20,960 nt of DNA, taken from the IMG/VR virus record IMGVR_UViG_3300013093_001662, positions 1 through 20,960 of that record, one strand, 5' to 3'. A program made the position numbers and the translations under genes. This DNA comes from a virus. Below the pieces are notes generated by a model, which made no database searches, was not told the origin of the DNA, and was given only the letters and a program-made list of their open reading frames with translations. Below are positions 2,155 through 20,960 of the stretch, piece by piece; the first letter of the stretch is position 1; each line of letters begins with the position of its first letter.

Positions 2155-2162
2155 TATTTAGT
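2155..2162 (-). promoter_or_regulatory. Putative late promoter of the tail sheath gene
   Basis: On the minus strand the sequence reads ACTAAATA followed by TAAC, close to the T4-type late element TATAAATA. It lies 39 bases upstream of the sheath ATG, leaving room for a short leader with the TAAGGAG ribosome site at 2124-2130. The same TAAATA core precedes three other genes in this window, all structural or of unknown late type, which supports its use. Confidence 0.6.
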
Positions 2163-2188: not shown

Positions 2189-2566
2189 ATGCATGATCAA
2201 AGGGCGCGACAAAGGGCGTGTAAATACAATATGCGAAAATTATGTAAGACCTGCGGGCAAAGACCAGTGGCAATTAACTACCATAAAGAGGGTAAACCAC
2301 ATTATAGGTCACAGTGTGACCATTGTGCTCGAGTATCTAAGGAAGGGATGCCTAGTTGGTTTAAGGCAGGATATAGGAAAAAACTTAAATGTGATCGCTG
2401 TGGATATATTAGTAAATTTCCACAACAGTTTAATGTCTATCATGTTGATGGCAATTTACGTAACTGCCGATATGATAATCTAAAGACAGTCTGCGCAAAT
2501 TGCCAGCGAGTACTACATTCTACTAATGTTTCTTGGAGACAGGGAGATCTAACTCCTGATCATTAA
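2189..2566 (+). CDS. Small HNH-type endonuclease
   Basis: A 125-residue Cys-rich protein with several CxxC zinc-knuckle pairs (C19/C22, C43/C46, C68/C71, C102/C105). Its core YHVDGNLRNCRYDNL (84-98) matches the H-x-D-G-N...N-L core of HNH nucleases, which cut DNA and often behave as free-standing homing genes in T4-like phages. The first His of the usual HH pair is Tyr84 and the usual final His after the last CxxC is Gln106, so activity may be altered. No good ribosome site fits the ATG at 2189; the in-frame ATG at 2231 (MRKLCKTCGQ) is an equally good start. It is the only plus-strand gene between the sheath and the gp13-like gene, and its 3' end overlaps the convergent kinase gene by 44 bases, as expected for an insertion. 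Confidence 0.72.
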   Translation: MHDQRARQRACKYNMRKLCKTCGQRPVAINYHKEGKPHYRSQCDHCARVSKEGMPSWFKAGYRKKLKCDRCGYISKFPQQFNVYHVDGNLRNCRYDNLKTVCANCQRVLHSTNVSWRQGDLTPDH

Positions 2567-3244: not shown

Positions 3245-4003
3245 TTAGCCAATAACAAATGTCATTGGTTTTTGTCCGTCAAAGTTATTGGTTAATTCTA
3301 GGTCAAGTTTTTCAATCATTGCAGTACCTTCTGCTTTAATTGCCGCACCATTTAGGCTAGTACCACCCTGTGGACCTGCAATAGTTGCGAATTTTTCACG
3401 TGCTTCGCCTAGCATAATCTTGGCATTGGCCAGTGCATAATCCTTGATCCAAATACCTGCGTAGTTGTCTTGGAATAAATTGAAATCTGGACGATAGTTA
3501 TACATCCACATGAGCACGCTTTCTTCTGTTCTAGGACGTTGTGCTATACGTAGTTTCTTTGTTGTTGGATTGAAATCAAAGTTAATAAAGCTACCAAACA
3601 TTTTGCCCACTAGGTTTTGATAACTAGCAAAAGCAAAATATGTGCCTAATCCGCCCATATTTGAGCTAGATAGTAAGTAAGTATTTGAATAAGCTAGGTT
3701 AAACGGTTCAAACAAGCTACCGCCATCGCCACCTCCGCTACGACTACCAATACTACGACGGAATAACTGACGAACTTCCATAACTTCTTTAGGAAGGAAA
3801 TATTCATTTTGGTCTACCTGTAGGGTTATAAATCCAAAACTTTCTTCGGTTGAGTTTTGGCTGCGCTGGCGATAGCGCATAAGAGCTCGATCAATGGCAG
3901 TATTATAGTGGATAGGATCTAATTCTACGTCTACGATTCCGTCACCTAAGAAGGTTTTGATATAATCGATTACTATCTGGCGTTCGTTTTCTAATTCAGT
4001 CAT
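3245..4003 (-). CDS. 13: Neck / head-completion protein (gp13-like)
   Basis: A 252-residue protein resembling T4 gp13, which with gp14 forms the neck that closes the packaged head and accepts the tail. The diagnostic part is the C-terminal third: IKDYALANAKIMLGEAREKF (about 186-205), then GPQGGTSLNGAAIKAEG, which matches the conserved 'AK-x-LG-x-x-R-x-K...G-x-x-SL-x-G' stretch of this family as I recall it. The N-terminus is helical and acidic (TELENERQIVIDYIK). A Gly/Ser-rich loop (SRSGGGDGG) lies near residue 88-96. T4 gp13 is about 309 residues, so this is a compact version. There is no Shine-Dalgarno upstream of the ATG (4001-4003). The gene diverges from the gp14-like gene across a 29-base gap, unlike T4, where both lie in one operon. 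Confidence 0.72.
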   Translation of the reverse strand: MTELENERQIVIDYIKTFLGDGIVDVELDPIHYNTAIDRALMRYRQRSQNSTEESFGFITLQVDQNEYFLPKEVMEVRQLFRRSIGSRSGGGDGGSLFEPFNLAYSNTYLLSSSNMGGLGTYFAFASYQNLVGKMFGSFINFDFNPTTKKLRIAQRPRTEESVLMWMYNYRPDFNLFQDNYAGIWIKDYALANAKIMLGEAREKFATIAGPQGGTSLNGAAIKAEGTAMIEKLDLELTNNFDGQKPMTFVIG

Positions 4004-4007
4004 ACAG

Positions 4008-4015
4008 ATATTTAG
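4008..4015 (-). promoter_or_regulatory. Putative late promoter of the gp13-like gene, almost touching the start codon
   Basis: Minus strand reads CTAAATAT, the same core as before the sheath gene, but ends only 4 bases before the ATG at 4003. If a late transcript starts 5-7 bases downstream of the element, as in T4, it would begin at or near the A of the start codon. No ribosome-binding site is present, so a leaderless mRNA is possible. Confidence 0.45.
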
Positions 4016-4016
4016 C

Positions 4017-4024
4017 CATAAATA
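4017..4024 (+). promoter_or_regulatory. Putative late promoter of the gp14-like gene
   Basis: Plus strand reads CATAAATA, one base off the T4 late consensus TATAAATA, and ends 8 bases before the ATG at 4033. No Shine-Dalgarno lies between. It is back-to-back with the minus-strand element at 4008-4015, so the 29-base gap carries two divergent late elements side by side. Confidence 0.55.
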
Positions 4025-4032
4025 ACATTACT

Positions 4033-5232
4033 ATGCCAAGACTTTCCTTATATCGCCCGGAGAAGGGCAACGACTTTAAATTATTAGACCGTGTGATCAA
4101 CGAGCAGTTTCAAGTTGGCGGTACTGACTGTATGATACACAAATATTTAGGTCCCGTAAATCCAGACGAAGTGGGTGGAACTGCTACACCAAGTATTCCA
4201 AATAATACCAATCCTATCCCAGAATTAGGCATACAAGATCTAGTGTTTATGGAAAACCGTGATCGCCATTATGATCCAGATGTCTACAGACTACGCGGTA
4301 TTTACACAATGATGGACAGCGTGTTTAATCTAGCACAGTTTGGTCTATTCTTAAGTAATGATGAGATCCTAGTACACTTTCATTTACGCAGCACATTTGA
4401 AGCCTTGGGACGTAAGGTAATGGCAGGTGATGTTATCGAATTGCCGCATCAAAAGGATGAATATGCATTAGATGATGCCATGGTTGCCCTGCGCAGATAC
4501 TATGTGATCACAGAAGTAACCCGTCCTAGTACAGGCTACAGTCAAACTTGGTATCCACATCTCTTACGTGCTAAATGTCAACCACTCGTTGATAGCCAAG
4601 AGTTTGCTGAGATTCTTAATGCTCCGGCAGGAGATGGCAACAAAACTCTACGTGATATCATCAGTACATACAATCAAAATATTGCTATCAATGATGCTAT
4701 TATTGCCCAAGCAGAAGCAGATGCTCCGTTAAGTGGCTACGACACAAATCAATTCTATGTTATTCCTACCCGTGACAACGGAATTGTTAACACAGCAGAT
4801 GCCAGCGATGACACTGATACTGTAGACAGCGAAACTGCTGCACTTGATGCTAGCATGGTATTACGCAGTCCAGATAAGGATTTCTACGTTGGATATTTAA
4901 CTGGTGATAATAAAACACCTAACGGTGCTCCATATACATTTGGTGCTAGTTTTCCAGATGGCGTGGTAGATGGTCAATTCCATCTACGCACTGATTATTT
5001 CCCTAACAGACTGTTCCGTTGGAATGGTAGAAATTGGATTAAATTTGAAGATAATGTGCGCATGACAATGACTAATAAACCAGTCGACGGATTGCCGGCA
5101 GACAATAGCCTAACACGTCAAACACAAAAAACTAGCTTTATCAATAATAATAATACTGCTACAATCGCTGGCGAGGTTGTACCGGAACGTCAAGCATTGA
5201 GTCAAGTATTGAAACCTAAGGCAGACAATTAA
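4033..5232 (+). CDS. 14: Neck protein (gp14-like) with long C-terminal extension
   Basis: The 399-residue product has an N-terminal half that resembles T4 gp14, the neck protein partner of gp13. FGLFLSNDEILVHFHL and KVMAGDVIELPH (about 105-145) parallel the 'FGM-x-x-x-DE' and 'EGDLIYFP' segments of gp14. The start MPRLSLYRPEKGNDF is followed by HKYLGPVNPDE. T4 gp14 is about 256 residues; the extra part from about residue 235 is polar, acidic, and ends with DGQFHLRTDYFPNRLFRW and NGRNWIKFED (encoded by about 4957-5052), a Trp-rich module also found in the sheath and gp15-like proteins of this window. The ATG has no ribosome site but lies just behind a late element. The gp15-like gene follows after about 50-100 bases, so 14-15-Nudix probably form one late unit. 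Confidence 0.75.
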   Translation: MPRLSLYRPEKGNDFKLLDRVINEQFQVGGTDCMIHKYLGPVNPDEVGGTATPSIPNNTNPIPELGIQDLVFMENRDRHYDPDVYRLRGIYTMMDSVFNLAQFGLFLSNDEILVHFHLRSTFEALGRKVMAGDVIELPHQKDEYALDDAMVALRRYYVITEVTRPSTGYSQTWYPHLLRAKCQPLVDSQEFAEILNAPAGDGNKTLRDIISTYNQNIAINDAIIAQAEADAPLSGYDTNQFYVIPTRDNGIVNTADASDDTDTVDSETAALDASMVLRSPDKDFYVGYLTGDNKTPNGAPYTFGASFPDGVVDGQFHLRTDYFPNRLFRWNGRNWIKFEDNVRMTMTNKPVDGLPADNSLTRQTQKTSFINNNNTATIAGEVVPERQALSQVLKPKADN

Positions 5233-7948: not shown

Positions 7949-7956
7949 TATTTATT
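7949..7956 (-). promoter_or_regulatory. Putative late promoter for the 98-residue protein and APS kinase
   Basis: Minus strand reads AATAAATATAGG, 21 bases before the ATG at 7927, with AGGAGAAC (7932-7939) between. Spacing fits a T4-type late promoter followed by a short leader. It lies in the 32-base gap after the stop of the glycosyltransferase gene at 7960, so it would re-initiate transcription inside a long minus-strand stretch. Confidence 0.6.
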
Positions 7957-19030: not shown

Positions 19031-20120
19031 TTAATAGTAATCTTCACGGATGGCTGCGGTATGATACCCTCCACAGGCCACTTGTTTCCAGTTAGTACCA
19101 GCACTAATGGTCTGTACTGGACTGCTTCTATGGGTAATAGTATTATCACCTAGTCCGCCGTAGGTGTTGCGTCCCCAGGTCCATAGGGTACCATCAGTTT
19201 TGATGGCTACGGTATGGAATCTTCCACAGGCCACCGATTTCCAATTAGTACCAGCAGCAATCGTCTGTACTGGACTGCTTTTAGCAGCTACAGTATTATC
19301 ACCTAGATTGCCAAATACTGCATTCCATCCCCAAAGCCATAGTGTACCATCAGTCTTGATGGCTGCGGTATGATAGTATCCACAGGAGACTAACTTCCAG
19401 TTGGTGCCGCCACTAATGGTCTGGACTGGACTTGATTTAGAATTTCCTGAAGTATTGTTACCTAGTTGACCATAGTTATTACGTCCCCAAAGCCATAGTG
19501 TACCATCAGTCTTGATAGCTGCTGTATGATAGCCTCCACCAGCCACCGATTTCCAGTTAGTACCACCTGCAACAGTTTGGATAGGACTGGATCTATGTAC
19601 TACACTAGAACCATCACCTAGTTGGCCATAGGTGTTACGACCCCAAAGCCATAGGGTACCATCAGTTTTGATGGCTGCGGTATGATACCCACCAGATGCC
19701 ACTGACTTCCAATTAGTACCACCAGCAACAGTCTGTACTGGACTGCTTCTATGGGTAATAGTATTATCACCTAGCTGACCATAGGTGTTACGACCCCAGA
19801 GCCATAAAGTGCCATCAGTCTTGATGGCTGCTGTATGATAGTATCCACTTGCGACCAGTTTCCAATTAGTACCACCTGCAACAGTCTGGACCGGACTGCT
19901 TTTGCTGACAGTAGTATTATCACCTAGAGCGCCATAGGTGTTATATCCCCAAAGCCATAGGGTACCATCAGTTTTGATGGCTGCTGTATGATTGGGTCCA
20001 CCCGAGACTAACTTCCAATTAGTACCACCAGCAACAGTCTGGACAGGACTGGATTTATTGACTACAGTATTGTCACCTAGTTGTCCGATAGTATTAATTC
20101 CCCAAAGCCACAATCCACCA
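19031..20120 (-). repeat. Seven tandem 153-156-base coding repeats (RCC1 blades)
   Basis: The block around 'ggtaccatcagt' recurs at about 19190, 19346, 19502, 19658, 19811 and 19964, spaced 153 or 156 bases, with a more diverged copy near 20105. Copies are very similar at DNA level, and the same unit continues in the next gene (for example at 20864), offering many sites for unequal recombination. Confidence 0.85.
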
Positions 20121-20206
20121 GTGGTAAAATAATCTCTGCGGATGAACATATCATCAAAGTCACTGTAATAACCCGGGGCTGTATTAAATTGAAAATTAAC
20201 TGCCAT
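19031..20206 (-). CDS. RCC1-repeat beta-propeller protein, seven blades
   Basis: A 391-residue protein. After an N-terminal segment of about 30 residues (MAVNFQFNTAPGYYSDFDD) come seven near-identical repeats of 51-52 residues with the pattern LWLWG-x-NTYGQLGDN, then SSPVQTVAGGTNWK, then VASGxYHTAAIKTDGT. Seven copies make a complete RCC1-type beta propeller. There is no signal peptide. In phages such propellers are plausible tail-fibre tips, virion decorations or adhesins; here that is inference, because no fibre or assembly domain is seen. The repeats differ mainly at the residues before YHT and in the loop after GDN, likely exposed surfaces. It overlaps the oxygenase-like gene by 11 bases, and a second RCC1 gene lies just upstream. 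Confidence 0.87.
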   Translation of the reverse strand: MAVNFQFNTAPGYYSDFDDMFIRRDYFTTGGLWLWGINTIGQLGDNTVVNKSSPVQTVAGGTNWKLVSGGPNHTAAIKTDGTLWLWGYNTYGALGDNTTVSKSSPVQTVAGGTNWKLVASGYYHTAAIKTDGTLWLWGRNTYGQLGDNTITHRSSPVQTVAGGTNWKSVASGGYHTAAIKTDGTLWLWGRNTYGQLGDGSSVVHRSSPIQTVAGGTNWKSVAGGGYHTAAIKTDGTLWLWGRNNYGQLGNNTSGNSKSSPVQTISGGTNWKLVSCGYYHTAAIKTDGTLWLWGWNAVFGNLGDNTVAAKSSPVQTIAAGTNWKSVACGRFHTVAIKTDGTLWTWGRNTYGGLGDNTITHRSSPVQTISAGTNWKQVACGGYHTAAIREDYY

Positions 20207-20699
20207 TTTCTGTTAACCTAAATATTTGTATTAATCCAGAATCAAATGAGTGAAACAACCACGGTCTAAACAGTATACCCTGACCTGGTTGCAGTAGATA
20301 ATTTGTAGTCACGTCCCATTGAAACATATCCCTGTACCCCAATTGATATCCGTCTAGTGCTGACTTTGGTCCATTAAGATTTTCGTATATGTTAAATGTA
20401 GACGGTTGTAGTGCTACAGCAAACACCCATTCATTCATACCATCAAATTCTTCAAAATGAACAAATAGTTGGGGAAATCTGAAAATTCCTGATCTATCCT
20501 CATCTACTTTTATGTTAGTATTTATAATAGTGGAGAATAACTGATCCGCATCAGGAGAAACAAGATTAAAGTTTTCTATCTCTTTGCCAAAATCTTTTTC
20601 AATATACTGTAGATTTTTTACTGTGTTTGATAGATTGATTGCCTGTTCTGAAGTCATAAATCCATCAACGGTGATTAGTTTAACTAAAGGATGTATCAA
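20196..20699 (-). CDS. Putative 2OG-Fe(II) oxygenase / cupin-like protein
   Basis: A 167-residue protein. The second half looks like a double-stranded beta-helix: LFVHFEEFDG gives an H81-x-E83 pair, then WVFAVALQPS, YLLQPGQGILFRPWLFHSF with H150, and FRL with R161. This order H-x-E/D ... H ... R (11 residues after the distal His) fits the iron and 2-oxoglutarate ligands of small phage 2OG-Fe(II) oxygenases, and PGQGILF-x-P-W-x-x-H is also cupin-like. A simple structural protein with this fold remains possible. The start is TTG at 20697-20699, overlapping the upstream RCC1 stop (TTGA), and the end overlaps the next RCC1 gene. The sandwich between two propeller genes suggests it acts on, or is carried with, them. 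Confidence 0.45.
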   Translation of the reverse strand: MIHPLVKLITVDGFMTSEQAINLSNTVKNLQYIEKDFGKEIENFNLVSPDADQLFSTIINTNIKVDEDRSGIFRFPQLFVHFEEFDGMNEWVFAVALQPSTFNIYENLNGPKSALDGYQLGYRDMFQWDVTTNYLLQPGQGILFRPWLFHSFDSGLIQIFRLTENGS

Positions 20700-20960
20700 A
20701 GTAGGTCACCTGAATCATCACGGATGGCTGCTGTATGATAGTATCCACTTGCGACCATTATCCAGTTAGTACCACCTGAAACAGTCTGGACAGGACTGGA
20801 TTTATTGACTACAGTATTATCACCTAGCTGACCATAGGTGTTATGTCCCCAGAGCCATAGTGTACCATCAGTCTTGATGGCTGCGGTATGGTATTCGCCA
20901 CCAGATGCCACTGACTTCCAATTAGTACCACCTGCAACAGTCTGGACTGGACTTGATTTA
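20696..20960 (-). CDS. Second RCC1-repeat protein, N-terminus outside the window
   Basis: The frame is open to the right edge, so only the last 87 codons are seen. They encode the end of one RCC1 blade and one full further blade: KSSPVQTVAGGTNWKSVASG, then HTAAIKTDGTLWLWGHNTYG, ending HTAAIRDDSGDLL. Repeats are nearly identical to those in 19031-20206, including the change of the final 'AAIKTDG' to 'AAIRDD' as the propeller ends (AAIREDYY in the other gene). It is therefore a paralogue, not a fragment of the same gene: each has its own terminal blade. The number of blades is unknown. Confidence 0.85.
   Translation of the reverse strand, partial: KSSPVQTVAGGTNWKSVASGGEYHTAAIKTDGTLWLWGHNTYGQLGDNTVVNKSSPVQTVSGGTNWIMVASGYYHTAAIRDDSGDLL

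Follow-up and report, generated by a model that had tools for sequence, protein, structure and literature searches.

Proteobacteria and their phages are usually considered to have few leaderless mRNAs. In the bacterial cases, and in the cI gene of phage lambda, the 5' end lies at the AUG, no Shine-Dalgarno (SD) sequence precedes the ATG start codon, and a -10 element sits about 12 bp upstream (PMC9031893, PMC3160421). In sequence analyses, a -10 signal at that distance from the start codon is the accepted criterion for a bacterial leaderless gene (PMC3160421), and leaderless initiation prefers AUG (PMC9031893). These are isolated genes served by sigma70 promoters, and initiation on their mRNAs is of the 70S type. 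The late promoters of phage T4, which use the gp55 sigma with gp33 and gp45 as co-activators, have no -35 element. Their box, TATAAATA, occupies positions -13 to -6 (PMC1524935); the T4 box lies at least 9 nt from the ATG, with an SD, and none of the T4 ORFs that we scanned has a box at 4-8 nt. The nearest discussions in the literature concern AR9, with leaders of at least 26 nt, and phiKZ, with a TATG motif at +1. In the open-access literature we came across no account of T4-like phages with leaderless late genes.

Here we set beside these systems a locus from an IMG/VR virus record (IMGVR_UViG_3300013093_001662). We define "the window" as the whole stretch that was analysed, a 21-kb fragment of 20,960 nt. 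We consider it about 85% probable that a gap between two divergent genes in the window consists of two opposed T4-type, gp55-dependent late promoters, with transcription predicted to begin on the AUG or no more than 3 nt before it, which would yield (near-)leaderless late mRNAs. The locus shares with T4 the core box and its association with late and structural genes, and a gp55 homologue is encoded in related contigs. With bacterial and lambda cI leaderless genes it shares the predicted 5' end, the missing SD, the ATG and the -10 distance, but the box is that of a phage late sigma and is found at tens of virion genes.

The gap between the neck genes

The gap spans positions 4004-4032 (29 bp). 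The gp13-like gene on one side (3245-4003, minus strand) encodes a neck protein of 252 aa (head-tail adaptor Ad2; phrog_211, E = 3e-31), and its family profile matches solved T4-type neck gp13 chains (E = 9e-14). The gene on the other side (4033-5232, plus strand) encodes a 399-aa protein related to phrog_11591, "virion structural protein" (E = 3.5e-74). A PDB sequence search gave no match for this protein, and AlphaFold modelled it with low confidence (pLDDT 56); the best structural matches of the model are T4 gp13/gp14 neck complexes, and on this fold match the product is likely to be gp14-like. The label "neck genes" is correct for the divergent pair.

Two late-promoter-like boxes lie back to back in the gap, 4 bp apart. 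On the minus strand the gap reads CTAAATA-TCTGT-ATG; the box occupies 4009-4015, and its TAAATA core (4009-4014) ends 5 nt (N5) from the gp13-like ATG at 4003. On the plus strand it reads CATAAATA-ACATTACT-ATG; the box ATAAATA occupies 4018-4024, and its core (4019-4024) ends 8 nt (N8) from the gp14-like ATG at 4033. An SD is absent before both ATGs. An earlier note on this DNA had described a 29-base gap between divergent neck genes, with opposed elements ending 4-8 bases from each ATG and no SD at either gene, and its coordinates and sequence proved correct. It had also named the sheath and 98-residue genes as having the same element at normal distances with ribosome sites, which we found as described: the sheath box (2155-2160, minus strand; sheath phrog_10581) lies 39 nt from the ATG with the SD AAGGAG, and the box of the 98-aa gene (7949-7954, minus strand) lies 21 nt from the ATG with AGGAG. 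Both genes thus serve as leadered contrasts.

The HNH endonuclease gene (2221-2566, plus strand) probably starts at 2231 rather than at 2189. From this likely true ATG the box at 2221-2226 (plus strand) is 4 nt away, and related HNH genes start at the corresponding methionine with TAAATA-N5-ATG, so that the window has a third candidate for a (near-)leaderless gene. Elsewhere in the window, RCC1-like repeat units (WLWGxNxYGQLGDNT...) form two genes, at 19031-20206 and 20696-20959 (minus strand), around a 167-aa gene.

The motif is not enriched by count in the window, where CTAAATA was observed 4 times against 5.4 expected and TAAATA 14 times against 31 expected. Its significance was therefore sought in the position of the box and in relatives. 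The feature that exceeds chance is this position, which is kept in homologues and genome-wide in relatives.

Box position in homologues and related contigs

The gp13 comparison comprised 80 close homologues from IMG/VR, 80 more distant ones retrieved with a family alignment, isolates and small sets. When the start was chosen to favour a leaderless ATG where present, 110 of the 177 starts were of leaderless type, and 105 of these had the box exactly 5 nt from the ATG. Another 61 were SD-led, with the box at 15-34 nt in all except one; no gp13 homologue among the 177 had a box-to-ATG distance of 9-14 nt. Among leaderless pairs the two boxes lie 0 to 27 bp apart and the gap measures 24 to 51 bp (mostly 24-33 bp), while the box-to-ATG distance is constant at 5. 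Because N5 stays fixed as the other two distances vary, selection appears to act on the register between box and start. Spacings of N7, N8 and N5 are kept on the divergent side. The comparison of this gap in related phages that the earlier note had suggested thus found both elements conserved, including the exact 5-nt register, and no conserved upstream start appeared in the homologues. Where homologues have longer N-termini (L010, L012, L038, L039), TAAATA-N5 precedes the extended ATG.

On the gp13 tree (149 rows) the leader state switches at most five times, and two odd rows, L243 and L244, look like mis-assigned starts. The gp13 gene is leadered in the outgroups Phosso, Atu_ph07, 121Q and PA5oct. 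A mainly SD-led gp13 subclade (43 rows, L203-L280) is nested inside the leaderless group, but its divergent gp14-like gene is still leaderless, indicating that leader state changes gene by gene.

These data bear on the possibility that the promoters work as proposed but that the layout is functionless in itself, the leaders having been lost through neutral genome compaction. In its favour, the gaps are very short, mostly 24-33 bp, and both gp13 and a 205-aa family (below) have changed leader state without visible loss. Compaction fits less well with the retention of N5 in gaps of 40-51 bp and with its deep conservation on the gp13 tree. We do not favour this explanation, though it has a real chance of being right; the fixed register may instead have adaptive value.

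The pattern extends well beyond gp13. We scanned 11 related contigs (925 ORFs, first ATG only) and found that the TAAATA-to-ATG distance is bimodal, with 100 genes at 4-8 nt and 120 at 16-45 nt, although the contigs are akin and gene counts among them are not independent. Peaks occur at 5 nt (58 genes) and 7 nt (25 genes), with a trough at 9-16 nt. SD-like sequences accompany 2 of the 100 genes with a near box, compared to 92 of the 120 with a distant one. In the same scan, other permutations of the TAAATA letters gave about 2 matches at 5 nt. Controls run through the same pipeline (T4 whole, 215 kb of Atu_ph07, 235 kb of Phosso, 59 kb of 121Q and 98 kb of PA5oct) had a box at 4-8 nt in 1 of 995 ORFs. 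The count of TAAATA-N5-ATG in 8 related contigs was 65, versus 12 for the reversed pattern. It was near or below the reversed control in 121Q, PA5oct, Phosso, XaC1, P-SSM2, S-PM2, Syn9, Aeh1, KVP40 and RaK2, and modestly above it in T4 (10 vs 5) and Atu_ph07 (15 vs 9).

One might suppose that these genes have ordinary leaders, transcribed from promoters further upstream within the opposing gene, and that TAAATA is an AU-rich translation enhancer or an unstructured landing site for ribosomes; AU-rich starts without an SD are known in other bacteria (PMC3160421). Mere AU-richness would not need an exact box, however, and no comparable peak is seen with the permuted letters. Upstream promoters also fit poorly with the exact 5-nt register, with the near-empty zone at 9-15 nt and with the occurrence of this box at genes that have an SD leader, as well as with the persistence of the pattern in a genome of 55% GC (G013, below). 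We consider this explanation improbable.

Leaderless-type members were found in 35 families, including the tail tube, terminase large subunit, gp25-like baseplate wedge, gp13 and gp14; twelve of the families have such members in three or more genomes each. This breadth is difficult to reconcile with the suggestion that start codons were mis-called and that the true starts, with ordinary leaders, lie downstream. Automated start calls are often wrong, but the homologues align from residue 1, the gp13-like gene of the window has no in-frame ATG between the proposed start and the conserved core, and the starts of phage HTVC008M (below) were called independently by its depositors. Mis-called starts are, in our judgement, a very improbable source of the pattern.

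The 205-aa family is of leaderless type (N6/N7) in five genomes; in five others the box is followed by about 10 additional nt that include AGGA or AGGG. It offers a natural leader swap, for example between L139:16346-16963 (minus strand) and L147:18346-18924 (plus strand).

Predicted transcript starts and initiation

A TAAATA core box, in the form (T/C/N)ATAAATA or CTAAATA, lies upstream of late and structural families, as expected of T4-type late promoters. A gp55-like late sigma is encoded in four long relatives (G001, G002, G004 and G005); the gp55 locus falls outside the span of the window. Given the T4 box position of -13 to -6, N5 spacing sets the predicted +1 on the A of the AUG, and for the gp13-like gene this is position 4003. 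The N5 register also coincides with the -10 distance of about 12 bp that is used to recognize bacterial leaderless genes (PMC3160421).

Sequence logos, which reached about 10 bp upstream of the box, are consistent with this assignment. The base preceding the ATG is a pyrimidine in 96% of N5 sites and 86% of N4 sites, whereas in 84% of N7 sites position +5 is A, usually with CT next, i.e. 5'-ACUAUG. A pyrimidine-A initiator thus appears 5-6 nt past the box in every spacing class; the T4 expectation is 6 nt after the last A. Spacings other than N5 give predicted leaders of 0-3 nt. Start codons are almost exclusively ATG: N5 sites have 71 ATG, 1 TTG and no GTG, in agreement with the AUG preference of leaderless initiation, and N7 sites have 27 ATG and no GTG or TTG.

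The earlier note had expected late transcripts to begin at or almost at the start codon, and the comparative tests favour that prediction. For the gp14-like gene, the homologue spacings and the logos place the predicted +1 at 4030, so that its mRNA most likely has a leader of 3 nt (5'-ACUAUG), not zero.

In the mechanism that we propose, late RNA polymerase with gp55 would begin transcription at the AUG or 3 nt upstream, so that the gp13-like mRNA would begin on the A of the AUG and the gp14-like mRNA with 5'-ACUAUG. Ribosomes would then initiate, independently of an SD, at the 5'-terminal AUG of these (near-)leaderless late mRNAs. A single late regulon could in this way feed two modes of initiation, one with the box abutting the AUG and the other with the box 16-45 nt upstream together with an SD. 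Boxes 4 bp apart suggest that both promoters of the window could hardly be occupied simultaneously, and the two might share initiation between the neck proteins. Phage-encoded factors that could promote leaderless initiation were sought as signs of an altered translation apparatus; neither bS21 nor IF3 was found in the 11 related contigs, and there were no tRNA genes in the scanned pieces (L098-L144) of 8 related contigs, two of about 200 kb and six others.

Recurrence in other phages and its implications

The earlier note understated the scope of the layout: many late genes of a large clade have it, and it reappears in two or more further phage lineages. The first of these is a 415-kb jumbo-phage contig (G013, the record of L267; pieces L297-L308) with a GC content of 55%, in which 27 genes have TAAATA 4-8 nt before the ATG and 2 of these have an SD. 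A search of G013 with two gp55 families found no gp55.

The second is HTVC008M, a cultured pelagiphage that infects SAR11. Of its 14 N5 sites, 12 coincide exactly with starts that the depositors annotated, and the phage encodes gp55 (E = 3.5e-66). Its divergent genes gp025 (DNA end protector) and gp026 (head closure) are separated by a 26-bp gap (L309:18917-18942; NC_020484) that holds two back-to-back TAAATA-N5-ATG arrangements. Despite this likeness, HTVC008M belongs to another phage family (it is filed under Kyanoviridae) and the gene pair is a different one, so the layout probably arose independently. We found no description of the HTVC008M layout as leaderless in the open-access literature. 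Published late-promoter detection failed in pelagimyophages (PMC7029224), perhaps in part because the boxes abut the ATG.

The jumbo phages Atu_ph07 and Phosso also have a divergent gp13/gp14-like pair with TAAATA boxes, but theirs is leadered with an SD, and the 4-8 nt class is missing from the scanned parts of both genomes. Matches to the gp55 family with in-frame stops, inside long open stretches, were observed in Phosso (W05, 222719-223072) and Atu_ph07 (W04, 474414-474824).

A broader proposal, which we offer with considerable doubt, is that several T4-like lineages have independently split the gp55 late regulon into leaderless and SD-led branches, and that the late phase is a programmed switch in initiation mode that sets the ratios of virion parts as initiation factors or 70S pools change.

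In a large environmental clade of uncultured T4-like phages, the late-sigma box appears to be locked in place relative to the start codons of tens of structural genes. This gives a simple sequence-based way to recognize late promoters that may escape scans, and the same box-to-ATG rule could aid the placement of start codons in environmental phage genomes. The natural swaps between leadered and leaderless states, at gp13 and in the 205-aa family, offer material for asking why leaders come and go.
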